Part shown: piece after piece, positions 5,334-24,869 of the stretch
Layout: each line of letters opens with the position of its first letter
How positions within the stretch are numbered: the stretch's first letter is position 1
Assembly (NCBI GenBank): GCA_022579005.1
Contig: MU401830.1
Span: 1 to 24,869 of the forward strand
Reading direction: 5' to 3'
DNA: 24,869 nucleotides
DNA from: Poronia punctata
Taxonomy: Eukaryota; Ascomycota; Sordariomycetes; Xylariales; Xylariaceae
Program-made: the position numbers and the translations under genes
Notes under the pieces: generated by a model
What the model was told of the DNA's origin: nothing
The model's database searches: none
The model's input: only the letters and a program-made list of their open reading frames with translations

Positions 5334-5391
5334 GTTAGAAACCAAATATTTATAGGCGCAATAAATATTTAGTTTCTTACCCCCCCTACAG
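5334..5391 (+). repeat. Hairpin intron candidate (palindrome family, copy 1)
   Basis: The segment starts GTTAGAAACC, carries inverted arms at 5337-5350 and 5364-5377 that pair over 14 positions with one mismatch, and ends CCCCTACAG. Read on the plus strand it has the GT..AG borders of a 58-nt intron. The base triplet before the donor is CCT, as in other copies at 12698, 14087 and 16257. The flanking exons are not identified, so splicing is inferred only from the resemblance to the frame-supported copies in gene B. Confidence 0.55.
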
Positions 5392-5845
5392 ACTTTTATA
5401 TTCATCTATGCACTGCTTCTTTACTGGTATATGTATATATTTGGTCTAGTACACCTTTATAACCTCAATATCTTCTGCACACAGCCCTTTTATGTCTTTT
5501 ATTTATTCTAGTATAATATATAACATTTAGAATATACTTTTAAATTATTATTAATAATTAAGGTATATTGTTAACAAACACCTTTACATTTATTGTTATA
5601 TATAACATTTATTATTAAATTTTTTTAACGTGTTTTAGTTCAACTTTAGACCTTAAGCCTGTCTACTACTAACTATACTAAATTTATAAAATTATTCTTA
5701 CAATGTCTTCTTTTATAATCAGCTTAATTCCTTATTTTATTGCTAGTATATTTAGCATTTTCCTAATTGCCGTATATATCTATTAGTTTATTCATAACTA
5801 CTAGCACATAGAAGTTACGGAAATTATATAATCTTTTTAGGTACT
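5392..5845. other. Region upstream of gene A, nothing identified
   Basis: No convincing coding frame. It would contain the promoter and 5' leader of gene A if the ATG at 5846 is correct. TTTTTAG lies a few bases before the ATG and could be a 3' splice site of a leader intron, but nothing confirms that. Confidence 0.35.
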
Positions 5846-6622
5846 ATGCCTATCTTAAATGCTGAACGATCCCGTCGCTACTAAGAGAAAAAAAGGCAAC
5901 AACGACTTGCTGCGCTCTACAAGCAAGCGGCAGGCCTAAATTCCTACCTCTACGTTGTCTTAAGCGTTGCCGCTGCTACAATCCTATTTAATTTACCTAC
6001 AATCTCCTATCCTATTAATTCCTACTAACCTTTTCAAAGTTCCTACTAGCATCCTTAATATGGTCTATAGCCTAGTTTTGTTTTGCTATTTAGCAGCAGA
6101 CATTTACAAAGACAGTTTCTCCCTTACTTTACCTCTCTTTTTTCCTAATTACTACTATTTTCTTAGCCTTACTTTTAAGTTACTTAAAACGGTCCTGTTT
6201 AACCTTTCCTTTACTTGTTACTATATATAGTTAACACCCTGCAACCTTTTATTAGCCTATCTGTTTAATCTTTAACCCAAGATAACAACCACCCCGTGCT
6301 GCTGCTCTATGTTATACTAAATATTGTACTATATTTACCTACTTTGCCTAATCTTAACTAACTTAGTAATCTAGGCGTAACTACTGTCCTTAGTTTGTCC
6401 CCGTCTACAGCTAATATATATATAAACACGCATTTTTTTAACAACTATACTACTTTATTACATTTAACCTATCTCCCCAGTCTTGTTAATTACTTTTTAC
6501 CTATACTTAAAGACACGCCTAACTCTCTACTTAAAAACTACTAACTTTACCCTAACAACACCCCATCTTTTAAACCCGCCGCTGCCGGGCTTAATAATAA
6601 TAATAACAATAACAATACCTAA

Positions 6623-7352
6623 TCTTCCGAACTTGTCCCTCCTAGGCCTAACAAATGCCAGTCTCTTGAACCTGCCCTTCCTAAGCCTAACAAGAGGACA
6701 TCTCCTAAACTAGCCCCTTTTAAGCCTAACAAGGGGACATCTCCTAAACTTGCCCCTCCTAGGCCTAATAAATGCCAGTCCCCCAAACCTGCCCCTCTTA
6801 GGCCTAACGAGGGGACATCTCCTAAACCTGCCCCTCCTAGGCCTAACAAATGCCAGTCTCCTAAACCTGCTCCTCCTAGGCCTAACGAATGCCAGTCTTC
6901 TAAACCTGCCCCTTTTAGGCCTAACAAATACCAGTCCCCCAAACCTGCCCCTCTTAGGCCTAATGAGGGGACATCTCCTAAACCTGCCCCTCCTAGGCCT
7001 AACGAATGCTAGTCTCCCAAACCTGCCCCTCCTAGGCCTAACAAATGCCAGTCTCCCAAACCTGCCCCTCTTAGGCCTAACAAATGCCAGTTTCCTAAAC
7101 CTGCCCTTCTTAGGCCTAACAAGAGGACATCTCCTAAACCAGCCCTTCTTAAGCCTAACAAGAGGACATCTTCCAAACCAGCCCCTCCTAGGCCTAACAA
7201 ATGCCAGTCTCCTAAACCAGCCCCTCCTAGGCCTAACGAAGGCCAGTCTCCCAAACCTGCCCCTCCTAAGCCTAATAAATGCCAGTTTCCTAAACCTGCC
7301 CCTCCTAAGCCTAACAAAGGCCAGTCTCCTAAACCTACCCTTCCTAGGCCTA
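6623..7352 (+). repeat. 39-bp coding minisatellite (13-residue repeat)
   Basis: About 18 head-to-tail units, each encoding variants of PKPAPPRPNKCQS or PKPAPPRPNEGTS in the gene A frame. The unit is exactly 13 codons, so copy-number change keeps the frame. In the unit at 7010-7012 the Gln codon CAG has become TAG while neighbouring units keep CAG, which shows directly how the stops arose. Two other frames and the minus strand also look open across this array, but those are shadows of the repeat. Confidence 0.9.
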
Positions 7353-7734
7353 ACAAAAAACTATTACTGCCTACTTTACCGATATCTAATAAGCAATATA
7401 ATTACAAGCCCTCGCAAACAAGACAAAAGAGGAAACTTGCGTTGCAACAAAGTAGTCTAGATGTAAAACGACAAAAGATTAAGGTGCATATAAGACAGAA
7501 AGTGATCGAAGCAGACAATAATAATTCCTTTTAAGAATCTGTTAGCTTTAGCTGTTAGCTAGGCAACAATACACCTGCTTTACTTGCTGCCTTTATTATT
7601 ATTATTTTTAGAGATAACACATCTTCTAAAAACAGCACATCTTCTAAAGACAATAGCAACAACACATCTTTTAAACAAGACTACCTTGTTAGTTTTAACA
7701 ACATATCCTCTAAATAAGACTACCTTATTACTTT

Positions 7735-8205
7735 TAATAATACATTTTTAAACAACAACAGCAGCAACACCCCTTTTAAACGCAACCTTGCTATTGCTTC
7801 TAATAACACATCTTTAAACTACAACAGCAGCAACACCCCTTTTAAACGCAACCTTGCTGTTGCTTCTAATAACACATTTTTAAACTACAACAGCAGCAAC
7901 ACCCCTTTTAAACGCGACCCTGCTGTTGCTTTTAATAATACATCTTCAAACTACAACAGCAGCAACACCCCTTTTAAACGCGACCCTGCTATTGCTTTTA
8001 ATAACACATCTTTAAACTACAACAGCAACAACACCCCTTTTAAACGCGACCCTGCTATTGCTTCTAATAACACATTTTCAAACCACAACAGCAGCAACAC
8101 CCCTTCTAAACGCAACCTTGCTGTTGCTTTTAATAACACATCTTCGAACTATAACAGCAGCAACACCTCTTTTAAACCCAACCCTGCTATTAGTTTTAAC
8201 AACAC
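7735..8205 (+). repeat. 66-bp coding minisatellite (22-residue repeat)
   Basis: Seven units with the marker ACCCCTTTTAAACGC at 66-bp spacing, starting near 7770. In the frame of gene A each unit encodes an Asn/Ser/Thr-rich block including NYNSSNTPFKRDPAIA. Shorter degenerate relatives lie on both sides (about 7610-7735 and 8205-8275). Variation between units is mainly C/T and G/A. The reading frame agrees with that of the 39-bp array 200 bp upstream, which argues that both belong to one protein. Confidence 0.9.
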
Positions 8206-11200
8206 ATCTTCTAAACACGACCCCCCTATTACCTTTAACAACACATCTTCTAAATCCGACGGCTCCGTTATTTTAGACAGTCTACCTTCTAAAGCAAACC
8301 ATACTAACCTTGCTTATAAGTCGCCGCCCAAATTGCCTCTAAATCTTATATATACCTAGTTAAAGTGGCGCTTTAATACTCTGCCTTTAATAGAACACAA
8401 TCGAGTTTTTAGCTAACTTAAGCACATATATGCAAATACTTGCAGTTATAGTATATTATTTCTTTTTATACTTAATTTAAGTTTATTTTGCTAACATAGT
8501 ATTTAAATATAAACAATGCCAACTGCAAACGTAACAGCGCCTCTCTTAAAGAAGTTACCGAGTATTTTAAAAATACGTGCAAGCTTAACGCTACTATATC
8601 CCTTATTATAAATAATTTTTCTAAGCAAAAGGCTACTTAAAAAAAGGCAATATATAAACATTTAAATTATCCTAAGTACCTTTATACGTTTTTTACAAGC
8701 GTGCTATTAAAACCTCTATTGTTTAACGCTACGTTTAAAGCATGTCGGGCTAAGTTAAACAATTTATTTGTTACCTGGTACTACAATGTTAATAGTTATA
8801 TTATATAGTTACGTTTGCTCTAAGCCTTTCCTAACTCTTTGTTTTTCTTGTTATACTTGCTACCGTTTTTTACTTCTATTATATAAAACCTCTATTGTAC
8901 CTTTAAAGGCAAGGCACCTTACAGAACAAGCAACATATTGCTTGGAACTTTTAGTTATTTTAGAGGCAATACGGTCCACCTTATATTCCTAAATGCGCCG
9001 GCATTAAAACTGCGTTAGACACTGTATCTTATATTAAAACGCCAAAAACAATTTGTTAACAATTATGTCTTGCTAGCGCTTAGGTCTTGTACGTGCCCTA
9101 CCCTCGTCTCTAACCACCTTACTAGTTTTACGCAGGCCTAGGCTAAGTTAAAGGCGTTTTATAACAATAACAACCCTACCTAGATGCGCAACCATACCTA
9201 CTTACAATATAGTATTGCCGTAACTAAGACCGCAGCCTTTTAGGTTGCGCTTGTATACAACTACAATAATTATTTTTTTAGTTTCTTTTTTAACCTAATT
9301 CTTTTACTTTAAGAGCACAACATTAAAGACATCACTACAAGCCCAACTAGTAAAAGCGCACTAAAGAAATTTTACGAAACCTTTTTTAAAGCCGCCAACC
9401 TTGCATATTTAAACCCAAGCTCTACTTAAGTAAATGTTGGATTCTATAACGTCCTAGATGTTAAATAGCTGCTACCTAATACCCTTAAGTCACTTACGCT
9501 AGTTTATAAAGCTAAATGCCTTTTTACAATAGCTTTAAATTCCGATAGCGCGTTCTAAAGCTTTACTTTGCAGCAGTATATATAGTATATACTTAGACAA
9601 ATTACGTTAATTAAACTAATCCGACAACATAGCAGAACGCGACAATTATAGCCAACACTATGCTAGCTTAAAGCGTATAGTATTTATAAGCAGCATTTAT
9701 AAATACTAGACAAACACTATTACCTTTTCTACCGCGCAGAATTCGATGATCTTTGTTTTAGGCAGTCGCTTTATAATAAGCACTACAAGGCAAAGGCTAG
9801 TACTAATATGCGCAGCAGGCCACCCCTTAACCTAAAAGCTATAATCTAAGATTTTTAGTTGCACAAAGCCTGATTATATAATATGTTAGCAAACTCCTTA
9901 GGCGCTAACTATAAAACTTGACAAGAATGTCGCATCTTATAGTCCTACTTTATATCCTTTATTAATGTTAGCAAAGCGCTTTTTAATATTACTACGCGCC
10001 CTTTATTGCCTAACGATAGCCTAACTAAGCACGATCCATTCTAGCTTATCCCAACCAAAGCTCTTAACAATCTTATCCTAGTTTTGGCTGTACGCCTTAT
10101 TAAGCCTATTAAAAGGCTTGCCGTTCTTGCCTAAGACAACCTAGCTAATCCAGACATCGGCTTTACCGACTGCAATAAGACAAGCGCTAACCTATATACT
10201 AATTACATCCTGCTTACCTTTCTCCGGCTAACATGCACAGGGGCTATGCCGTCTTGGTACCTTTAGCTTTAGCTTAAAAAGTAGCAACCCTGCTTAGCAG
10301 GCAGAACCCATCGTTAATACCTACGTAGCCTAGGTATAAAGGACATTATAAGTCACTTTAGTATACCTTAGTTACTATAAGAGATAATGTTTATCTTTAC
10401 TGCTACTGTTATATCTGCTGTCTGCAAACTACTTTGCTTATCTTTTCATCATTTGCTTAAAGCCCCTCGTTGCAGCAATTTCAATTTAAGAAATGCCCCT
10501 AGTTAGGTAAAGGCCTAATTAATCCTCTAGACTATAGTAAGCGACACTATTGCACAGATCTATACGCATTGGAAATCAAACAATTATACTAAAGCATTAC
10601 AGCTTAGATCTAAGCTGTTCTACTTATGCCTACAGTTAGTTATGTAAGAGTATAACTACAAGTTTTTAAAAGCCCACAAGTCCTCTCTAAAAAAGCTTAA
10701 CAGCGTTACTCCTGCTATAATTAATACTGCACTATATAGAGGACAGCCTAACAATGCTACCGGCTATATATAAGTCATTACCCCGCTCGAGCTCATAAAG
10801 GTGTACATTAGGCTGTTCGAAGCCATAGGCCCTAAAGGGCCCGCCTTATATAAGGAACTTTAGAAGATAAAGCTTTTTATAATCCTTTACATAGCTATTA
10901 CTAAAGCACGTTAAGGCTATAAAGGGTACAACAAAGCTAATGCTATAAAAGGTGCCTGCACCTAGGCGTCGTATGTAAACACGATACTAAGTAGCATAAA
11001 CAATACTGTATTATAGACAGCAAAGAATTTTGTGCGTTACTACTACAAAATAAACAAATAGTAGCAAGAGGGATTTATATACAATAAGAACGCCCTTAGT
11101 TTTACTTTACTAACTTTAAATAACTAGCGAACATATGCTTAGGTATACGCAAGCGCGTATATTTATATTATACTAAACTACGAAAGAGTTAAGTTTTTTT

Positions 11201-11972
11201 ACGTTTAAACACAAAAGCGATAGAAACTAAAATTAAGTTTCTTTAACCTTAGATATTGTATGCTAGGACTGTCTAGTACTTATATGCTAAAAGGGCATGC
11301 ATTCGACACAGCGATAGCCGCAGCAGTACATTCAGCAATAGCAAGATTGCTACAATAAATAAAACAAGCATATGAGCAAGAGTATCTAAAGCCTTTGTAT
11401 TGCAGTCTTAAAGATCTTGTTAATTTAGCGAAATTTCTTAAAAATCTCAAGATAACTATAAGCTAACAAGTTAACCACTACATTTTTTCGTTTGAGCAAC
11501 CTAGGTTAGGGCCGACTTCTTAGTTAACTAACATTCTACTAAGGGCAAAACGCGCATTCTACGTATACGAAAACAACGCAAAAAAACTGTTCTGGCCTAT
11601 TAAGTTATTGTCCTATAACAGCATACCTAGTGTTACTATAGTTGATAATAACTAGGCAAACCCTACTACACCGTTTATAATAAAAGAATATATAAATTTA
11701 TATGTAGTAAAGGAAAAAAAGGCAATACGTCTTTAATTAGAACTATAGAAAACAAGAATTGCGCAAAACAAGGGCAGTAAATAGGATTTATTGTTAGACA
11801 ATTCTATAAAAGCCTCTAAAATAAATGCAGCTAACAGGTTAGGTGCTAAAAACGCCTATAATTAAGATAACGCTAAATTGTAAGGTTTTAATAACATTTC
11901 GGCTATGTTAAAACATATACCCAATAAACAAAATAAAAAGGAATAAGCAGAACATATAAGCAAAGGAAGGGC

Positions 11973-12212
11973 ATTAAAAACCAAATATCTTTGTAGGTAG
12001 GTATGCAGCCGTAGGTTAGTACACATACTAGTAGCCTAAGTACATTTATAGTTCAGTCTTATCTAGAAACTAAATATTTATACATACGTTTCTTGGGCCA
12101 TTGCAACTTTTTAACTAACCATTCCTACTACATCTTTTTTCCCAGACCTGCGTTAAGACCTTATTGCACAGCTATAAAGATATTTAGTTTCTTATCCCTA
12201 TCTCTAAAGAAG
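11973..12212 (+). repeat. Composite hairpin intron in gene B
   Basis: Left arm at 11973-11989 (ATTAAAAACCAAATATC) and right arm at 12179-12195 (GATATTTAGTTTCTTAT) belong to the palindrome family but are about 190 bp apart. Between them at 12063-12095 lies a second partial copy (CTAGAAACTAAATATT ... GTTTCTTGG). Gene B reads in the same frame before 11973 and after 12212; an intron starting at 11973 and ending at the AG of 12209 or 12212 has a length divisible by three and fits. It looks like one hairpin intron into which another copy has inserted, but the exact splice sites are inferred. Confidence 0.55.
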
Positions 12213-12285
12213 TAATATAGCGTCTCCCTAAACCGACGATGCAGGCGGGGCATTAGCGGACCTACAAGAAACAAAAAACGCGTTG

Positions 12286-12372
12286 TCAGATGCCAAGCCA
12301 GCCGACGCGCTAAAAGCCAAGCTAGCCGACGCGCTAGAAGCCAAGCTAGAGGACGCGCTAGAAGCTAAGCTA
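12286..12372 (+). repeat. 24-bp coding repeat in gene B
   Basis: About three and a half units of GCCGACGCGCTAGAAGCCAA-type sequence encode an 8-residue heptad-like repeat (AKLADALE). The predicted helix is amphipathic and would form a short coiled coil between the N-terminal region and the helicase part. The frame agrees with the exon that begins near 12211. Confidence 0.8.
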
Positions 12373-12697
12373 AACGAGAGGCTCTCCTCTTTAGGTTAGA
12401 ACATGCAAAAAGTAATCAAAGAGCACCAAATAAATTAGCCCAATTAGTATCCTAAACAAGACGCTGTTCCTAAGGCAACAGCCCCGCCTCTTTACACTAT
12501 AGCATTATAAAACGCTATAACTATCGAGAATATAGAGCAGTCTGTAAAAGACTTGCTAATTTACAACATACAAACTCTCTACACAAAGAAGCGTGCCTAG
12601 AAGGCCATCTTTATAACCTCTTTCACGCATTTTGCCCACCAAAATAAGTTCTACTTCTTTGTCGACACATATAGTATGTCTTTTTTTATAGAAGCCT

Positions 12698-12776
12698 ATA
12701 AGAAACTAAATATTTATAACTTTATATATTTAGTTTCTTACCTACCCTCTTACCTACTTTGTTAACTATTTTATAG
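12698..12776 (+). repeat. Hairpin intron in gene B, frame-supported
   Basis: A 79-nt intron. Arms at 12698-12713 and 12726-12741 are inverted copies of GTAAGAAACTAAATAT; the only mismatch is the first base, where the donor G is now A after a T, the exact change RIP makes at TpG. The branch-like GTTAAC and the acceptor TTTATAG follow. Coding before is in frame 1 (window coordinate modulo 3) and coding after is in frame 2; removing 79 nt converts one into the other exactly. The downstream exon begins LSNMLYDYYLFYLQLAQ after Gln is restored at TAA. Confidence 0.85.
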
Positions 12777-14086
12777 TATCAAATATGCTTTACGACTATT
12801 ACCTCTTCTACTTGCAACTGGCCTAAAAAAAGAACCTAAACTTTGCTACCCTTATAGGGATCGTACATGCGATAGGAGAGATCGCTACTGCCGCCAACTT
12901 AACCCCGCAAACAACAATTAACAAACTAGAAACCCGACTTAAAAATGACGAATTACTAGGCAATATTACATATTTAAATATAGTAGCTACTTTGCGCATC
13001 CTTTAACACAAAATGCCCGTAACAAAAAGCAAAGAAAAGGAAAATAAAAACCTAAATCTAACTAACACCTACCTACTAGGCATTAGAACACTTGCAGCAG
13101 CACAAAAACTTATCAATACTTTCCCTACACATTTTAAAATACGCAAAAACAATACCTATTGTATATTTTAGGGTATAGCTAGTAAAGACTAGGCCAAAGC
13201 TGTCTGCTTTATTAGGTTCTGGTAGCATTGCAAAACATTGCAGTCTAACAGCAACTATAGCAATCAAAAATAGTCGGCTCTGCACCTAGAGGCTCTTGCA
13301 GTGTTTTCTGCTAAAAATGCAAGCTTGTCTAACATAAACAAGTTTGCGCTAATAAAATCTAAAGCAGCAAAAATAAAAGGCAAAACCCTAAACGACCCCA
13401 TTAGTAACATTATTAGCGCGACCAAGACAGCAAACACCGACCTTCTCCAGTATGCCCCCTATACTAAAGCAATGGCACATAAGCTTTCTAACATCGACAA
13501 AGAGATTGCCAATATAACCGATTACAAAAAGAAGATAGAGCTACGGTCTATAAGAGACTTACTTATATAAACGCTTATAGTTACAGCGCTCTATAAAAGC
13601 GTTAACACGCTGCTTTACATAAGCAAGGCCGACTTGCAGTTTGTTTATAATTGGACCAAAGTACAAGTTAGACATTTCGAGCGCAGTTATGCTCTACTAC
13701 TCCTAAGAAAGATTAGTAGTACTACAGCAGTTAATATAGTTGTTCGTTTAGAAAACGTCGCTCTGGTTCTTACTCTAGACAAAATGTCCTTAAAACCTGG
13801 TCTAGAAGGCAAAAACGCCGACTTTAGTAATTTAGAAACAGAGGACCAAGTAGTAGTATACGAAAATCCTTTCGTAATAGAAAGCAAGGCAAGAGAGAAA
13901 GCAAAAAACAAGAAAGAGAAATATGACTTTATTACCTAGCAAACTAGTAGCAGCTTGACCAGGCAGCACTTAACTCTAGAGGAAGCTGCTAAGCAACTCA
14001 GACTCTTATAGGACGATGCAAAAACCAGCCCTTAAACTAAGGCAACCTACCGCCCTTACTAGATCATTAGTACGTTTTATTACCCT

Positions 14087-14198
14087 ACTAGAAACTAAAT
14101 ATTTATATTTTTTAAATATTTGGTTTTATATGCATCCTTCTCCGGCCTTATACTAACCCTTCTTATATGGACTAAATATTGCGTTTACCTTGGGCAAG
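14087..14198 (+). repeat. Hairpin intron in gene B, frame-supported
   Basis: Palindrome arms lie at about 14087-14101 and 14115-14130 (ACTAGAAACTAAATATT and AATATTTGGTTTTATA). CTAAC occurs at 14151-14155 and the next AG is GGGCAAG ending at 14198. Removing 112 nt connects the upstream frame (modulo 2) with the Walker A frame (modulo 0). The donor now reads AC and must have been GT or GC; only the G to A step is explained by RIP. Confidence 0.7.
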
Positions 14199-14531
14199 AT
14201 TATTGTCTTCTTTAAATTTGCTTTTATTATAAACAAATGTAGAACAGGCAAGACAATTATATATAGTAGTGTTGCTGTATACTTTTACGCTACAATGTAC
14301 AAAAACACACCTTTTAAAAACTAAGTATTTAAGCCAACACTTATCCTTACTCTATCTTCTATTGTTACGCAAACCTTTAACGCCTTACGCGCATTTTTCC
14401 CTAACATATTAAACGTATATTTAGCATATAAAAATAACCAAACTAAACTAGAAGGTACTAAGAGAACAAAGGTACTTAATAAAAAAGCGTTAGACGCCTT
14501 AATAGGCAGCCTAGAATCCGACAATCTAGTA

Positions 14532-14585
14532 GTAAGTATTACTTTACACTAACCCAAAAAACCCCCTACAACTCGTGTCCAACAG
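14532..14585 (+). other. Ordinary spliceosomal intron in gene B
   Basis: GTAAGT at 14532-14537, CACTAAC near 14547-14553 and CCAACAG ending at 14585 form a textbook fungal intron with no palindrome. Coding is in frame 0 before and frame 2 after. The GTAAGT donor gives 54 nt and would keep the frame; a donor at 14536 (GTATTA) gives 50 nt and fits the observed frame change. Either the second donor was used or a small indel has occurred since. Confidence 0.7.
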
Positions 14586-16149
14586 ATATTTGCTTTTATA
14601 CTGCACTTAAACATACTAACACCTCCTAAACCGGCAAAGTCGTGATCGTGTCTTCTTTTACTACCTTTTATAGCAAACATAGCTTGAAAACTACCAAGGC
14701 ATACAGACAGCTTACTATAAAGGAGCAGGATATCTGTAGCCTTCTTAACCTCGACAACCATGCGCAAGCTTAAAACCTAAAGCTTTCTATACTATTTAAG
14801 TTTATTATAATAGATTTTAAATAGAAATTTGGTCTGCTTGTAGTTGACAAGGCCCACACTTGCAAAAACCCGTTAAGTATAACGCATAGACTTGTTTGTG
14901 CGATTTACAAGGACGCCACCCTATTAAGCTCTGCTACGCCTCTAATAAACTATCTTCAAGACATGCTTAGCTATTTAAAGATTAGGTTTGCAAACCTGCT
15001 AAACTTATTACCTCTTTTAAAAGACTTCGATAGCCTTTATCTGTACTAGAAAACGCTTCTCTTTAACCTATTTATGCGTCTTAGCTATTTGCCCTACCTT
15101 GACGCAGCTAGGACAAAACAAGACCCCGACCTAATTAGCTAGCTATTGCTTGTTGACCTTGACGACCTGCAAATTACGCCTAGCATAAAGGTCCTTACCA
15201 AGGCTTACAACAACAACTACTTTTAGTAGACTTTATTACCTACCCTTTTCTCATACACAGCAAGGCAACATTAGTAGTTTTTTGACCTCTATAAACAAAT
15301 AATTAGCCAGATTTATTAACAAGTTTTCCTTCGCTGCAATATAAGCACTAAGGTAATAACCCTAATAGGCAAGGAAGTTGCACTTAGAGACGACATACCT
15401 AGGGCCCGGTTTACAACCGTCTATCTCTTATTAGATAAAGAAAGTTAGCGCAAGTACGTGTTTTGGTTTAATAACTATGCAAATAAGTTGTTTGCCATAT
15501 TCTTAACTAAATTAATATTCGACGTTATTAAAGCACAGCAAAACAGGACATATGTTAATCGGCACTAGCATAATAAACATAAAGAACTCCTAACCCCTAA
15601 CCCTAGTGTCTGGCGCAAACTGGACATTATTGCATTAAACCTGAACGACGTTAAGATCTTTTGCCTAGACGATAACTTTAAAAAAGATTCGGAAATAGAT
15701 AGCAGCAAAGTAACAACACATCTAGTTAGCTAAAACAAAGACAATGCAGAGGATTACGGTAATCTAGATAGTAAGCCAGATAGTAAGCTAGACAGTAAGC
15801 TAGGTAACGATCTGCTTACTCTAGTAAAGTTAGAAACTGAGAAACTTGCTAATAAAGATAGCGACCCCGGGCTAGTTATTTTTACTGCAAAGAAGGCCGT
15901 TACAATAGGGGTAGACAAGGTCCGAGAACTAATCACAAAGACAAAAAATAGCAGGGCACAATTTGTTTTCCACACCACCAACACAGACAACTAAGCAGTA
16001 TTGCCTGTTGACCAAATTAGCTAGTTCCAGTTTATTATTAAGCGCAGCCCACTACTTGCATATCTTGTAACACAAGTGCTTAACTGTATCAATAGGCCGC
16101 GTAACTCTGAACATCCTCATCTTCCTAACCGCGCAGTCATTATAATAAA

Positions 16150-16204
16150 GTTACCTTAAACATAGCAATAAGTATATCTATCGATTCTAATTTCCTTTCC
16201 CCAG
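16150..16204 (+). other. Ordinary spliceosomal intron in gene B
   Basis: A 55-nt segment starts GTTACC, has TTCTAAT as a likely branch site and ends TTTCCCCAG. Removing it moves the frame from modulo 2 to modulo 0, which is the frame needed for the next hairpin intron (16257) to restore modulo 2 downstream. The two introns support each other. Confidence 0.65.
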
Positions 16205-16256
16205 GCGCAGTCCTACTTAACCCAACCCTAATGTCGTCGATAGTAACATCTACCCT

Positions 16257-16360
16257 ATAAGAAACCAAATATCCGTAGCTAGGATATTTAGTTTCTTATT
16301 GCCCCTAGCCCCTATTATTTCCTTCCCTACGATTGCCTTGTTTGCTAATATCTATGCAAG
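16257..16360 (+). repeat. Hairpin intron in gene B, frame-supported
   Basis: Arms ATAAGAAACCAAATATC (16257-16273) and GATATTTAGTTTCTTAT (16283-16299) form the family palindrome. The donor G has become A after T (CTG to CTA), as at 12698. GCTAAT and the acceptor TATGCAAG ending at 16360 complete a 104-nt intron. Together with the intron at 16150 it joins the frames so that the second helicase lobe begins EIYILLHLLNIEVG at 16361. Confidence 0.75.
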
Positions 16361-17380
16361 GAGATTTATATTTTGCTTCATCTTCTCAACATAGAGGTCG
16401 GCACCATCGCCTCTTATTATTTAAACAAAAAGCGTCTTAAAGTCGTTAAGGATTTTAATAATCCTACTAATAGTATATAAGTTTTAGTTTGCAGCACCCG
16501 CACAGCCGGAGCGGGCATCAATCTTTACAACTGCTGCTGTTGTAAATTTATTATCGCCTTAAAATAAAGTGCAAACATGTTAAACCAGGTCCTAGGTTGT
16601 CTAGTCCACATCAGTCAAAAGCGCTTTGTTAAATAGGAAATATTTGTAGTTGTAGGAACTACATATAAGCACCATAAGGCAATCATGTAGGCCAAGTTTT
16701 CCTAACAGCTGGCCGCCAAGGGTATTATCGACTTAAATATTAGCAGTGCGCTAGGAATTGTTGTTTGTTATAAGTTAATCTGCTCCCTTTATAACTAGCC
16801 TTGCAGCCGGTTTCTTCTTAAGATTGCAGATTACGCTAATAACAGCATCTCTTTCGGGTTCCTTAGCTAAGTTAGCAAAAAGATATCGAAGATTGCTCGC
16901 CTCGCGCTAGCACATCCTAAGGATGCTAACAAACTCCGTAGGTATACTAACATAAACTACGTTGCTTGTGCTACTGTATAGGCCAAAATAGAAAAGCTCG
17001 ACCCCGACTTTAACATTACAACGCTTGCAAAGGTACAAAAATACGGCAATTTAGAGCACTTCAAAATTAAAGCTGTTAAAGACAACTTGCTAGCTAAGGT
17101 ATACTCTGCTCTTAGTGCTGCTATAGAAGAGGAGAACAACGACATCCTTACCTGCAAGAACAAACACAATCGCGCTATAAAACAAAGGAAGAAGTCCGAA
17201 AAGCGGCTATTTAAAAAAAAGGCAGCAAAGATAAAGAAGCAAGAAGCCCAAAGAAAACGGTTAAAGTTAACACAGGCTAAGAGAACTAAACAATCTGTCG
17301 GTTTGGCAAAAAGACAAAAGCGCGGTCTGCCAACTACTCCGCAATCCGTCCCCAGAAAAAAGCCAAAGGTTGGCGAGTAG

Positions 17381-17643
17381 GTAGATAGCAACCATTTGGG
17401 TTCAAGGGCGATCTTTAGGAGGCGGTATTAAGTTGCTAACGTATCTATATAAATATTATTCCATAGCTTTAAGTTTAGTAGGATGCCTGCTACTATAGCT
17501 GTTCTTCTATAGTTTAATTAACTACTATCTGTACTATGACTATATAAAATATGTATATTACATCTATGTCCGCTTATTATTATTAGTTTGCATTATAGCC
17601 CGATATTTCTCCCTTAATTGTTTTCGGTGGCCGCTTGAACACT
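17381..17643. other. 3' flank of gene B, nothing identified
   Basis: Immediately after the TAG at 17378-17380 the gene B frame stays open for about 15 codons to a TAA, so the ancestral stop could be either. No other gene, tRNA or clear terminator was found up to the palindrome. Confidence 0.4.
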
Positions 17644-17687
17644 ATAAAAAACCAAATATCCGTTGCCTAAGATATTTGGTTTCTTAT
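17644..17687. repeat. Palindrome family copy downstream of gene B
   Basis: Arms ATAAAAAACCAAATATC and GATATTTGGTTTCTTAT, about 10 nt of loop. No exon is recognised on either side, although TATAG directly follows the right arm. It lies in the B-C spacer before an ambiguous coding remnant. Confidence 0.8.
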
Positions 17688-17769
17688 AGCTTTATGGTTT
17701 TATACCTCTTTTACGTATTTATTAGGAAGCAAAAAACTACGTTGTCATATTATAGACCTAAAGAATAAT

Positions 17770-18300
17770 ATGTCTCACATTTACCCTGCACCTACTGGCC
17801 TGTTTATCTACCTTTCCCAACATATATATTACTTCCTTGTTTGTTCTCCTATACTTATTAATACAATACCATATAACTGCAACTATTAATTCCGAACATT
17901 ATACCAACGCCTCTAAAAACCTATGTCTTCAAGTACTTATAATCCCTTTACTGCATCTAACAAACTCCTAACGCCGATGCCTTTATAAGAACCATTGCAT
18001 TATTACTCTGTGTTTTAACTGCATTTACCACTACGTCCCTAATATAGACAATAGCTTGTCTCCCGGCCGCAAGCATCTCCCACAACAATGGCAAAGGCTG
18101 TTGTTTATCTTCCTATACGCCGCCAACTATATTACCGTTCCTAGTTATAAGTACTGCACACCCTGCAATATTCGGTCTACCGGCAGTCGGTTAGTAAAGG
18201 GCAAAATAATAGTAGTAGTAAGGATTAAAGCAAGCATAGGGTCCTTCTATCTATTTGTAGTTAACTATATACATATTAGTTAGCAAGTACTTAGAAAGAC
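17770..18300 (+). pseudogene. Ambiguous coding remnant between genes B and C
   Basis: Two overlapping plus-strand frames are plausible. One starts ATG TCT CAC at about 17770 and continues without TGA past 18300 when TAA/TAG are read as mutated Gln; it is rich in Gln, Pro and Ser. The other, truly open at 18056-18280 and readable from about 17940, has CxxC spacing (CFNC, CTPC) and the block SPGRKHLPQQWQRLL. I cannot decide which was translated. No function is assigned. Confidence 0.25.
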
Positions 18301-18937
18301 AATTAACATATGCACCTACATTTGATATAGACGTCAAAGCGTTCGCTGTTAAAAAACATTGCTGCTTTATATGCCGTGCTCTTCAAGCAGGTAATAAGTA
18401 TACTATATCGGAATTAAGTATTATACAAGTAGTTCTAGTTTATATATTGCTTACTGCTACAAAAGTTCTTAGGTTGATTAGAAAACAAACATTAAAACAA
18501 GGTATAGAAAGATGCCCTTTTAATAAAAGCGTTGCTATAGTACGTAGAGAACATATAAACTATGCCTAACTTAAGTAAGCCGCTTATTTAATGCCTAATA
18601 TAGTCTAACAGATGTTGCAACAGCAGGGATATTGTTACAAACTAACGCAACGCATGCTAACGTAACTTGTAGCAAACAGAAAAAAGTAAGGTTAGTAAAA
18701 CTTTATAATTATAATTGCCTTACCTTAACAATAACACTACTTTATAAGTACATATTATATAGCAAGCTTGCTTTTAATATAATAAGGGAACATAGTAACA
18801 AAAAGCCTTCACGCCCTAGTCATTACATTAGATATTTTTAATTTATAAGAGGTCACGTATTTAAAATCCCTATTAAAGCTACCTAGCTAACCTTTGCAAA
18901 ACTACTTACAAACTACCTATATACAGTAGTTTCTATA
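18301..18937. other. Spacer between genes B/E and C, nothing identified
   Basis: AT-rich sequence with only short chance open frames (for example 18632-18841). It separates the convergent genes B and C and should hold their 3' ends, but no polyadenylation signal stands out in this composition. Confidence 0.4.
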
Positions 18938-20258
18938 TTACTTTAAATTTCGAAGCCTATTGCTAGTTCGGGTTTTTAAGGGGCGATCCTCACTGTCCCC
19001 AGAGCTTACCCGGCCTCGCTTCTTTTTAGCAGGTTTAAATATAGCTAGATTGCCACTATTGATTTCTCTTGCATTTAGCGGTTCTCCGCTGCCATTCTTA
19101 GCCACTTTCAGCTCAGGTTCTCCTCCCTAGTCTCTTATGCTCTTATTAGTTATATCGGCACCTTTAGTGTTCCTAACAGGCATAAAGGTTACAGTGTTCT
19201 TGACCTATAAGGTAAATGCTTTAAGCCCTTCCTCGGGGCCTAGTCTAGGGGTCTTTACCTTCTTGTGCTCATTATAGGGAAAGATCTAACCCTTGTTCTT
19301 TGTCGCTAGAGCAAAGGCAAGAGAAGCAGGAGGCTCCTCGACCGCAAGAGCAAGCAGTTTAAGCATGCCTAAGCGCTCTGCAGTATTAAAAAAGCATTCC
19401 ACACTAACCCCCAACTTATTAACAGCGCGTTTATAATAACCCTTATGCTTATAGTTAAGCACTTGCGTATAAAGCAGTCGCAGTAAAAACAAAGCAAGTA
19501 GGCCCGTGCTGATATTATAAAGCGCCTTGTCACTAGGTAGTAACTAGAGCAAGTCTTTTATAAAGTCGAGAGAGCGCTAATAAAGGGCGATTTTAAAGAT
19601 ATCAAGTCTAGACGCCTAGCCTTAAACACTGTTAAAATATCTTCCATTTTTGCACTCCAAGCCTTTGGCAACAAAATCGTTAAGCGCTGTGCAAACTTTA
19701 TATAAGAGTGTATAGCCCTCAGGGTAGCCAGGTAGTAACTGGAACCTAGCATAAATGTACAGATTGTAGTTTATGCCCAGATATTGTTTAAAATGCTAAC
19801 CCAACTTTAGCTGTTCTAGTAGGGTGCTTTTTGTATATTCTAGCCACGCGGCAAAGGCATCTGCAATCTGACTATCGTAAGCAGTATTACTAACAGCAAA
19901 GACTTGCTATAACACTGGTATATTTGTCTCAAGCTAATTCGAATGCGCACTCAAAAAGGTAATTGTTTGCATAAAGCCATTAAATAACCTAGGAGGACCT
20001 AGGTAAAATCTATGTCAACATACTAACAGAATCTCAAACTAATACATACTGCAGGCATCTTTCTCTTTAATAATTAGCATAGCAAGGCGATCATAAGTTT
20101 AGGTAAAAGTACAGACTGCCTCTTTTTAAAGCGTATCTAAGTAGTAAGGCAAGATGTTAAACACACAGAACCCGGCAACAGCTAATATAGTAGCTAACAA
20201 TCTAGACACAATTAAGGTCAATATACGCCTAAAGAAGACTAAGTAATATAGGAAAGGC

Positions 20259-20304
20259 AAAAGAAACCAAATATCTCTAGTTAAAAGGATATTTAGTTTC
20301 TTAT
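20259..20304 (-). repeat. Palindrome family copy in a gene C intron
   Basis: On the minus strand it begins ATAAGAAACTAAATATC at 20304, preceded by T, so the donor G to A change again fits TpG mutation. Gene C coding is clear up to about 20305 and again from about 20240. Candidate acceptors (TTACTTAG, TTCTTTAG) follow, but neither joins the frames perfectly, so a small indel or a different donor is needed. Confidence 0.65.
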
Positions 20305-21727
20305 AATCTTTAAAGAAAAAAACGTAACAATATAATAATAAGAAACTTATACTTATAGGAGCGTTGCAGTTGCTACAACAGTTGCGTAGGTTACCGGACT
20401 TTGACTTCGCATCTTTAGTTTAAGCAAATTTTAGATTATGTAGCTAAATATCGGACTACCGCTTGCTAGGAAGTGCATAAGGCTATAGCAGCTAACTAGC
20501 AAAGGCACCTAAGGGTTAACACAAACACTTTTAAACTAAAGTAAAGCCCCGTAATCCCTAACACTGCCGAAGGGCTGTAAGCTCTCCGAGGCGGCCTGGA
20601 ATGTTTCGATTTTGTCAAAGTACGCCGCCGTTTGCTATGTCGGGCGTAAGAGTCGCATAACGTCCGGGACGATAGCCGCCGATGCAAGGATATCAATACC
20701 TTCTTAATTTTTATAAAAATTATTAGTTTCCAACTCCTTAAAGTAATGCTTATAGTAAAACTGTAACCATAAATCGTATACTTTGCGGGTTTCTGGTGCA
20801 AGGCGAAGTACTAGCCATAGTATTTCTACCGATAGATCACCTAGCTAATCAGTAGTACCAGTAATCTTTGCAAAGCCCTCTAAGTCCGTAAACTAATACC
20901 TTTGCTAGAGATTATAGTCCCGCAGGACACGGTTCTCTTGCACTGCAAAAAAAGTAAGAAGATCTTTTCAAGATTAGATCGTCATCTTTAGCATGTCGGG
21001 GTCCATGTCTTGCAGCACAATACAATTAGGATTTATTAAGACAAAGAGCTCGACGACTCTGTTATAAAAGCGTTTCTACCCTTCCAATTCTTTCTAGTCT
21101 CCCTTATAATAAACTTCTTTATAATCAATCTCCGGACAGAAGGCAAAGAGCTAGGTTCTGGTCCAAGTCCGGGCTAAGAGCAGATAAGGGTCCTAGAAAT
21201 TAAATTGCTCTCGAAAAATGCAGGCTTAGGCGGAAGTAGTAAAATAAGTCAAGGTGCAACCAAGTAGCTTTATTAAGGACAAAAGAACTTTTGCAAATAA
21301 GTACTTGTTCTTCATATTTTAGCGCATCCGGCAATACTGCTGCCAAATAATCCAAGCTTTAGACTAGTCTTTTATTAAGTGCCCCAAAATAATAAAAGAA
21401 CCATAGGGGGCTTAGGATTTTAAAGTCTCTATAAAACGTTGTAGGTTAGACTCCAAGAGCTAAAAAATAGCACAAATATATATTATCAAAACCTGTTCAA
21501 TACTGTTGCAAGGCACTAGGATTTCAGTAGCAGATCAAATATGTATAACAAGCACGGCCCGCTAAGCACCTTATAAAAAAAAGATATTAGTAAAGAGAGT
21601 GCAGGTTAGGGGGCAATATAACGTCCCTTTCTTATCGCCTACAGTAGCAAAGCGCGTATAGTACTAGTAAAACAAGGCAAATATAGCCGCAGCTGTTAAA
21701 TAAGGTTAATATAATATAAAAGAGTAC

Positions 21728-21772
21728 GTAAGAAACTAAATATCTTTAGGGTTGAGATATTTGGTTTCTAAT
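21728..21772 (-). repeat. Palindrome family copy in a gene C intron
   Basis: Arms GTAAGAAACTAAATATC and GATATTTGGTTTCTAAT. On the minus strand the intron would run from about 21772 to the acceptor TTTAACAG ending at 21693. Coding on both sides is strong (upstream FKCYLCTNSTYL, downstream AAIFALFYQ) but in different frames; the exact junction is not resolved. GTACGTA occurs on both sides, at 21724-21730 and 21776-21782. Confidence 0.65.
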
Positions 21773-22097
21773 CAGGTACGTACTATTAGTACATAGGTAG
21801 CACTTAAACAAAACAAAATTAGGAAAATAGGTATATGCTGCAGCAAAGGTTTATATTGTTTGTTTTTGTTTCTTATACAGGTCTTTGTTAAACACCCTAT
21901 TAAAGATAATTTTGTGCTCATCGGTTTCCGTTTCCTATTTAGTTTTAAAAATTGCAACAAGAGCTTTACCTGCCTTGTAAAACTAATTGAGGGTGTCAAA
22001 AAAGTTCTCTACAATCACATCGCGAAAGTTACGGCCGTCGTACTTATTATGTTTGTCTAGATACCGCAGCGGGATCGGGGCTAGCTAGCTACTTTGG

Positions 22098-22098
22098 C

Positions 22099-22138
<40 letters not shown>

Positions 22139-22158
22139 TTAGGCTCCTCGGGCTCCTT
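22098..22158 (-). repeat. 9-bp coding repeat (EEP) in gene C
   Basis: About seven units of CTCCTCGGG on the plus strand encode Glu-Glu-Pro on the minus strand, forming an acidic EPEEPEEP tract preceded by LAEKEAGKEPEEPKEP. After the tract the coding frame of gene C shifts, so an intron or indel lies near 22060-22095. Confidence 0.8.
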
Positions 22159-22196
22159 GCCCGCCTCTTTTTCCGCAAGGCGCTATTCCAAAGAAA

Positions 22197-22309
22197 GTAA
22201 GAAACTAAATATTTGTTAGGAGGGTTCCTAGGCTTTAAAAAAAAGATGTAAAGGGGAAGGTAAAGGTCTAAAAGGGAAACAAAGGCAGAGAGATATTTAG
22301 TTTCTTAAC
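22197..22309 (-). repeat. Long-loop palindrome family copy in a gene C intron
   Basis: Arms GTAAGAAACTAAATATT and GATATTTAGTTTCTTAAC enclose about 78 nt, much longer than in other copies. On the minus strand it starts GTTAAGAAAC after GGTGCCT, contains CTAAC, and is followed by GGAATAG, where coding resumes with the charged segment LAEKEAGKEP. The loop may hold a secondary insertion. Confidence 0.6.
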
Positions 22310-22407
22310 AGGCACCCCATCGGTATAACTCCACAACTGCTAGTAACAAACATTCTATATAGCTACAAAGACGAAGGCGCATATTTATAAGGCCAAGAAC
22401 ATTACAA

Positions 22408-22424
22408 GATATTTAGTTTTTTAT
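22408..22424 (-). repeat. Single palindrome arm at a gene C exon end
   Basis: GATATTTAGTTTTTTAT on the plus strand, read as ATAAAAAACTAAATATC on the minus strand. It sits where the first long coding block of gene C ends, in the position of a donor. I do not find its partner arm within the next 100 nt, so this copy is probably broken. Confidence 0.45.
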
Positions 22425-23974: not shown

Positions 23975-24113
23975 CCTAAGTTTATAAAGGAAATAGTGTT
24001 CTTATCTTGTCTGCTATAACTATAACTACTTTGCTATATTGTGCCCAAGTTTACAAGGGAGATAGTGTTCTTGTTTTGTTTGCCATAACTATGACCACTT
24101 TTGCTATATTGTT
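23975..24113. repeat. Two tandem copies of a 69-bp unit
   Basis: Units at 23975-24043 and 24044-24113 share AGTTTA(T/C)AA(A/G)GG(A/G)(A/G)ATAGTGTTCTT. The left copy has TA where the right has CA or TG (TTATAAAGG versus TTACAAGGG, CTATAAC versus CTATGAC), so the left copy is the more RIP-mutated. Confidence 0.85.
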
Positions 24114-24181
24114 CCTATTTTCTATAGGAGAAAATGCGTCCAAAAGTAGTTAGAGGATTTCCTATTTCGGACGGAAAATGG

Positions 24182-24230
24182 CCAATGCCAAGACATTTGC
24201 ATTTTTATAGAGAGGTTTTCTTAGCATTGG
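24182..24230. repeat. Imperfect inverted repeat
   Basis: CCAATGCCAAGA at 24182-24193 pairs with TCTTAGCATTGG at 24219-24230, with 11 of 12 positions matching and a 25-nt loop. The mismatch is a G to A change. Its function is unknown; it may be a short hairpin or the ends of a small element. Confidence 0.5.
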
Positions 24231-24237
24231 GCACTGC

Positions 24238-24428
24238 TGATAACTACTTAGCCACACTACTTAAAATTAGCCACACTACTTAGAATTAGCTACACTACTT
24301 AGAATTAGCCACACTACTTATAATTAGCCACACTACTTACAATTAGCTACACCACTTACAATTAGCTACACCACTTACAATTAGCCACACTACTTAGAAT
24401 TAGCTACACCACTTAAAATTAGCCACAA
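24238..24428. repeat. 19-bp tandem array
   Basis: About ten units of AATTAGCCACACTACTTAG at an exact 19-bp period. Variants alternate CA and TA (GCCACAC, GCTACAC, GCTACACC), again transitions. It is non-coding in any sensible frame. Confidence 0.9.
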
Positions 24429-24869
24429 CATAGCTACAAGGTCAGGTTAGCTCTATGACCTTTAGAATTTACCTGCTATGGCCATGACCTTTAGAATGAC
24501 CTGAATTAGCCATGACCATTACCTTTTGAATTCACCTGGCAAAGCCATAGCCTTTCGAATGACCTGAATTAGCCATGACCATTACCTTTTAAAATGACCT
24601 GCCATGGCCATGACCTTTGAAATTCACCTGGCAGAGCTATAGCCTTTTAAATGACCTAAATTAGCTATGACCATTACCTTTTAAATTGACCTGGCAGAGC
24701 TATAGCCTTTGGAAATAACCTACTAAGGCTATAACCTTTAAAATTTACCTAGCAAAGCTATAGCCTCTTAAATAACCTAAATTAGCTATAACCATTACTT
24801 TTTAAATAACCTGCTATAGCTATAACCTTTTAAAATAACCTATATTAGCTATAGCTATAACTTTTTAAA
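24429..24869. repeat. Composite minisatellite running off the window
   Basis: Units of about 29 bp (forms of GCCATGACCTTTAGAATGACCTG) are arranged in a higher-order pattern. The marker GAATTAGCCATGACCATTA and its mutated forms begin at 24503, 24566, 24658, 24779 and about 24842, giving spacings 63, 92, 121 and 63. C to T changes increase to the right: GCCATG is common before 24620 and is replaced by GCTATA after about 24640. The array is cut by the window edge. Confidence 0.85.

Follow-up and report, generated by a model that had tools for sequence, protein, structure and literature searches.

A directional palindromic unit within transposons of Poronia punctata and its relation to introns

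Results

A RIP-mutated repeat and its genes

The stretch of DNA analysed here (hereafter the window) is contig C377 of Poronia punctata, 24,869 nucleotides long, in a genome assembly of 45.05 Mb and 573 contigs. From about 2.4 kb onward the window is a single copy, mutated by repeat-induced point mutation (RIP), of a repeat longer than 22 kb that I call E1. Sequence matches place E1 on six other contigs (C203, C254, C152, C257, C223 and C198), and a genome search with gene B, which gave nine matches on seven contigs, adds C421 and C557, bringing the total to nine contigs with C377 counted. The marks of RIP are threefold: stops in the coding-like training frames of the window are 26 TAA, 47 TAG and 3 TGA; TCA and CCA are rare, TTA and CTA being enriched in exchange; and the E1 paralogues differ mainly by transitions. 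Between positions 8400 and 22400 the depletion follows the base that precedes CA: TCA occurs 103 times versus 1142 for TTA, CCA 153 versus 838 for CTA and ACA 470 versus 991 for ATA, yet GCA (530) and GTA (523) are balanced.

Three of the E1 contigs, C377, C203 and C254, stop near one and the same point within a satellite-like array (window 24230-24869, also locus L047) that runs on for kilobases on C417; chromosome ends are perhaps nearby. Elsewhere in the window, a unit of about 150 bp is present in three tandem copies by eye at 1980-2410, and a tandem repeat at 6600-7360 gives, in one frame, proline-rich units such as PKPAPPRPNKCQS.

The genes of E1 are degraded (Table 1). Gene B resembles an SNF2-type helicase, with Pfam matches to SNF2-rel_dom (E 8e-4) and Helicase_C (7e-4 to 1e-3) that both lie below the curated cut-offs. 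No convincing domain was recognised in genes A and C, and Pfam had no match to nine translations from the rest of E1. A viral envelope protein was considered for gene C and rejected, since the weak match, below cut-off, came from the wrong frame and the right frame gave none. With stops written as X, the translations of genes A and B yielded no external homologues at the set E-values among about 8000 candidates scored for each, and Rfam gave no match to the window.

Table 1. Palindromes (h1 to h10) and gene features of the window
Feature	Position	Strand	Context
h1, palindrome, flank TACCCTGTT	5334..5380	+	5' of the first gene-like block; arm match and paralogues
h2, composite	11973..12195	+	outer arms 11973-11989 and 12179-12195, about 190 nt apart; between coding blocks A and B
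Gene B	12262..17380	+	RIP-mutated; resembles an SNF2-type helicase; Pfam matches weak (SNF2-rel_dom, Helicase_C) and under the cut-off
h3, palindrome	12698..12741	+	gap in gene B
h4, palindrome	14087..14131	+	gene B, preceding the helicase Walker A exon; reads ACTAGAAAC, without GT
Gene B intron without palindrome	14536..14585	+	GTATTA...CTAAC...CAG; fits the frame (hand count)
h5, palindrome	16257..16299	+	separates the SNF2 exon from the Helicase_C exon
h6, palindrome	17644..17687	+	downstream (3') of gene B
Gene C	18965..22300 (limits approximate)	-	RIP-mutated; without known domain
h7, palindrome	20259..20304	-	within a gap of gene C
h8, palindrome	21728..21772	-	within a gap of gene C
h9, palindrome, loop about 79 nt	22197..22308	-	gene C side
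h10, lone arm	22408..22424	-	arm match and paralogues

A family of palindromes in E1

A first-pass annotation of the window had described at least nine copies of a palindrome and, at a tenth position, a single arm. The family exists. Searching with the arm pattern GTAAGAAACCAAATATC and up to three mismatches returned 18 matches, compared with 0.15 expected and a maximum of one in 100 shuffles, and nine of the ten positions listed in that annotation fall among them. The tenth, 14087, does hold a copy, but its arm departs from the pattern at 5 of 17 positions and was recovered by the 14-nt core alone. Similarly, the copy at 11973 is present but is composite rather than a simple palindrome, its outer arms enclosing a degenerate copy that begins at 12065. 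The details of the arms fared less well. None of the arms in the window matches exactly the 17-nt arm that had been quoted, many of the differences being of the RIP type (C-to-T or G-to-A), and not one copy carries GTAAGA at both of its outer ends. With the match at 14585 set aside, four of the 17 arms read GTAAGA and six ATAAGA; four of these six are preceded by T and can be read as RIP-mutated GTAAGA.

The E1 paralogues other than C421 and C557 were compared site by site. Every paralogue that reaches a site carries the palindrome there (h1, 6/6; h3, h4 and h5, 4/4 each; h6 and h7, 3/3 each; h8, h9 and h10, 2/2 each), and h2 is complete in four of five, the match of the fifth, C223, ending ahead of the last arm. 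Since the sites are identical, the palindromes were present in E1 before these copies arose; no empty site, that is, an E1 copy reaching the site without a palindrome, was seen among the paralogues compared.

Structure and conservation of the unit

The repeated unit had been taken to be a hairpin of about 43 bp alone. This is contradicted by 8 to 10 bp of flanking sequence that are shared above random on either side. The unit is about 60 bp long and directional, with 14-nt arms (AGAAACCAAATATC and GATATTTGGTTTCT), a loop of mostly about 9-15 nt and weaker flanks, TACCCTG on the left and GCCYCC on the right. In an alignment of ten distinct copies over 61 columns, identity is 0.905 and 0.830 in the two arms, 0.456 in the left flank, 0.464 in the right flank and 0.439 in the loop, to be compared with nulls of 0.271-0.272, of which none in 1000 reached the observed value for any part. 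The left flank TACCCT is common to h1, h4, h5 and the copy at the 3' end of a gypsy element described below.

Of eight folds, six (representing five of the seven units) have strong predicted stems, with z from -4.6 to -7.2, and the other two have weaker ones (z -2.0 and -2.3). Covariation of the stem is not decisive: shuffles reach the covariation score in 29 of 500 cases and the number of paired cells in 78 of 500, and both the LTR copy and the gypsy 3' copy have an uncompensated break in the outer right arm. The arms amount to the terminal inverted repeats of a miniature inverted-repeat transposable element (MITE). Comparison of the flanks by eye gave no consistent target site duplication, TA-sized or longer; TA, which is self-complementary, flanks both ends in three of the ten copies. 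Taken together, conserved stems, free loops and the lack of a conserved duplication fit a foldback element.

A resemblance was also seen at 14570-14601: the end of the gene B intron that lacks a palindrome, together with the exon that follows it (GTCCAACAG|ATATTTGC), looks like the loop and right arm in the 3' copy of the gypsy element (GTCCATCAGATATTTG).

Copies elsewhere in the genome

The palindrome is not confined to the window. A genome search for arm pairs, part of the check proposed with the first-pass annotation, found 73 places per strand and none in the control, and the reversed arm pattern had no match in the genome. At least 57 of the 73 were assigned to E1 or to a chromodomain gypsy retroelement, and one, on C301, to neither. 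Among the 50 matches listed, 29 lie on E1 contigs, 12 in the linker between protease and reverse transcriptase of the gypsy element, 6 in its leader and 3 elsewhere; two of these last (C65 and C132) occupy the leader site of a second gypsy subfamily. Gypsy linker places total 20, and as 8 of these are additional to the 50, 58 of the 73 are accounted for; leader places total 7, C178 being counted in both groups. Linker and leader were assigned by a RIP-tolerant pattern, and some of these contigs were read as well.

The intact arm AGAAACCAAATATC occurs 17 times in the genome: four times in the window, three times in the gypsy element of C178 and ten times in one LTR-like repeat. The unit is thus found in three host repeat families. 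A looser scan for un-RIPped copies gave 16 rows, 12 of which fit the known families and four of which, elsewhere, are single-arm look-alikes; a scan for left flank plus arm gave ten places (control, none), one of which, on C324, is outside the set already placed. In viral_contigs the arm pattern was unmatched, and no relative of the gypsy pol was found.

The gypsy element of C178 has LTRs of 331 bp that are 99.7% identical and a stop-free pol open reading frame (ORF) of 1461 aa with RVT_1, rve and Chromo domains. It carries a perfect, un-RIPped copy of the palindrome. In the leader, one arm lies about 17 nt ahead of the first Met of the gag ORF; in the linker copy, the 1461-aa ORF runs open through the palindrome; and the 3' copy immediately follows the pol stop. 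Leaders of C178 and C98 agree at 176 of 177 positions when scored as purine or pyrimidine, and the perfect 27-bp palindromes of some leaders are the product of RIP on an imperfect leader copy. The length of the linker is similar and variable in homologous proteins (21 of 197 matches aligned), so that the linker copy is not visible as an insertion. A different palindrome (arms ACAATTCATCT, 10-nt loop) lies inside the gypsy pol gene (L031, 2756-2787). A second gypsy-like element on C12 (L046, 119000-125500) has an intact ORF of 1353 aa; the 6.5 kb around it contain no palindrome.

In the LTR-like repeat the unit is present in all ten loci examined, which had been chosen for holding the arm. On C417 (L043, 13720-14220) an LTR copy is broken within the right arm and joined to sequence resembling window 24040-24400, with ATATT shared at the joint.

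No palindrome among those placed (57 of 73) lies in a single-copy gene, strongly diverged copies being beyond the reach of the pattern, and the gypsy copies sit in leader, linker and 3' end. A spread of the unit through genes, which the introner-like interpretation of the first-pass annotation implies, is therefore not supported. Copies lying mainly outside introns had been named there as a refutation of that interpretation, and the gypsy and single-copy-gene results supply this in part.

Position relative to introns

The first-pass annotation held that three palindromes of gene B start exactly at intron donors and that those of gene C fall between coding blocks. The mean coding score at eight E1 sites is 1.59, compared with 3.03 for random placements, 100 of 5000 of which scored as low; there is some circularity in this test, as the blocks between palindromes served to train the scores. 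The best reading frame changes across h3, h4, h7 and h8.

In gene B the donor role is borne out unevenly. At h3, an intron starting with the palindrome (12698-12776) and one starting at a GTATGT 24 nt upstream (12674-12776) fit the frame equally well; the palindrome start reads ATAAGA, possibly a RIP-mutated GTAAGA. At h4, the palindrome start paired with an acceptor at 14198 fits the frame, but the start reads AC, and a branch-like motif is absent within 40 nt of the acceptor; a GTACGT 17 nt upstream misfits. At h5, with a candidate acceptor at 16360, the answer depends on the frame: frame 2 is used upstream to about 16100 and none is clear beyond, while the palindrome start (16257) fits as donor only in frame 0 and a GTAACA 14 nt upstream (16243) only in frame 1. 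As for the gene B intron that lacks a palindrome, a GTAAGT at 14532 misfits the frame as its donor.

In gene C, h7 and h8 do lie in gaps between coding blocks, but their starts misfit as donors. The introns that fit run from 20356 (ATAAGT) to 20202 and from 21783 (GTACGT) to 21693 (AACAG), which puts the palindromes 52 and 11 nt past the donor, respectively. Modelled in this way, a palindrome occupies the stretch from donor to branch site, which in short fungal introns is the free part; that the 3' parts of the introns are unrelated would follow from this.

Orientation of the copies

A leave-one-out score favoured the assigned direction for nine of the ten aligned copies; the exception, the LTR copy, is therefore probably reversed in the alignment. 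Unsupervised orientation made the E1 gene copies sense to their genes; relative to the initial assignment it flipped h2 and the LTR copy, and its second-best solution flipped h7 too. For the sense test, orientation was referred to the two gypsy copies only, which are independent of E1, and the gene-associated set was h2 to h9, h2 and h6 being beside gene B and not within it. The copy h1 was left out since its region scores plus in 68-70% of random places. All eight copies were sense with flanks of 8 or 10 bp, and seven, with one tie, with flanks of 12 bp. Random places in gene regions scored 47 to 51% sense, and 5 and 9 of 3001 draws made all eight sense. However, in the non-coding gaps 59-60% of places scored sense (988 and 963 places, palindromes excluded), so the bias is partly one of composition; at this background, eight of eight would arise by chance about 1.5% of the time. 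Judged by flank similarity, the gypsy linker and 3' copies are antisense to gag-pol, and the leader arm is on the gag-pol strand.

The proposal of an introner-like family thus retains the low coding scores, the frame changes and the uniform sense orientation, and is not supported as regards the donor role and the distribution among genes.

Discussion

Origin of the unit

MITEs and foldback elements are short, non-autonomous palindromes with conserved ends and a free middle. The unit described here is likewise short and palindromic, with conserved ends and a free middle, but it is nested in transposons, and no target duplication and no transposase or source element was found for it. The best explanation, which I hold tentatively, is a foldback mini-element, non-autonomous and once mobile, that is nested within transposons and tolerated where it sits in introns or spacers. 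It is supported by the arms, flanks and loop that copies have in common across three host repeat families, by the identical sites within E1 copies and within gypsy copies, and by the h7 and h8 intron models, in which the palindrome is inside the intron and not at its donor. In a fungus with RIP-like mutation, the unit would have entered several transposon families, presumably through a process acting on DNA that left no clear target duplication behind. It would survive where inserts do little harm: in introns between donor and branch site, in spacers, in the leader and 3' end of a retroelement and in an unconserved protein linker. Passive multiplication together with the host transposons would have followed, RIP setting in later. 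Weak points of the foldback explanation are that neither an empty site nor a source was found, and a sense bias of eight in eight is unexpected for a neutral insert in existing introns; I read it as selection for compatibility with splicing of the surrounding intron, not as proof of intron-making. An open-access literature search, arm letters included, found no description of the unit.

The unit could instead be a functional cis-acting hairpin selected in transposons, for example as RNA or single-stranded DNA to which a protein of the host or of the element binds. A role of this kind has been supposed for the Conserved Hairpin Site of fungal GalEa Copia elements. According to PMC5445492, that site has 9-bp arms, mostly CTGATCAGT or CTAATTAGT, directly past the 5' LTR; it too is a transposon hairpin with conserved arms and a variable loop, but the present unit has another sequence, several sites per element and other host families. 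Arms conserved far better than loop and flanks, the strong predicted stems and the placement in gypsy at gene borders and in the linker favour a selected hairpin. Pair changes not clearly above shuffles and the uncompensated break in the outer right arm speak against it, and the homology of loop and flanks points to copying over convergence. On balance I consider it unlikely, although a serious contender.

Rather less probable is an introner-like unit: it would carry its own 5' splice site (CCT|GTAAGA) and make use of a branch site and acceptor farther downstream, and an exon that it enters would thereby gain an intron. Only sense copies would then persist in genes, and the antisense gypsy copies would avoid splicing of the genomic RNA. 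The sense bias keeps this model alive, and the palindrome start is compatible with the frame as donor at h3 and h4, so that an introner-like origin is possible. However, h7 and h8 require other donors, h3 has a rival donor, h4 lacks GT and h5 depends on the frame; the gaps by themselves lean towards sense; and the copies placed are absent from single-copy genes and, in gypsy, lie outside introns.

According to PMC4457414, the introner-like elements of Dothideomycetes are near-identical spliceosomal introns with hundreds of copies in unrelated genes. The present unit resembles them as a recurrent intron-associated sequence in a filamentous fungus, but it is palindromic, in transposons and partly outside introns, and near-identical introns in many unrelated genes were not what the placed copies revealed. 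For introners derived from DNA transposons, a mode has been described in which the element contributes one splice site and recruits the other (PMC9860276); these introners share with the unit the possession of inverted repeats, but the unit has no target duplication, its spread through genes was not found and its donor role is only putative. Sister stwintrons and cropped introns of Hypoxylaceae have, according to PMC8469720, inverted repeats of 45-55 nt at both (stw)intron ends. The symmetrical sister stwintrons are like the unit in tying inverted symmetry to introns without flanking duplication; unlike theirs, both 14-nt arms here precede the branch site in the intron models, and the acceptor part is unrelated.

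A further reading, which I regard as decidedly unlikely, is a directional foldback unit in transposons that bears a donor: landing in sense would turn a spacer or exon into an intron, and only antisense copies would survive in retroelements whose RNA stays unspliced. Very unlikely is that the unit was itself immobile and reached other transposon families from a first one when repeats recombined or underwent gene conversion. The broken LTR copy of C417, joined to sequence like the right end of the window, and some sequence shared by eye 3' of the unit between gypsy leader and LTR copies would suit such exchange, but at least nine separate E1 sites demand many exchanges and a single joint was seen. 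That look-alike palindromes arose by chance in AT-rich, RIP-mutated DNA is scarcely credible: the gypsy leader copy did become a perfect palindrome only after RIP, but the un-RIPped perfect copy in C178, together with the excess of arms over shuffles and the absence of the reversed pattern from the genome, contradicts it.

Implications

If the unit was mobile, as the foldback explanation holds, it would be a palindromic parasite of transposons, strand-biased in their introns, and the step from palindrome to intron would be testable. If the hairpin is selected instead, it would be a cis-acting element common to different transposons, pointing to a shared host factor. And were the unit to bear a donor, it would parasitise transposons in the manner of an introner and could be a forerunner of introners.
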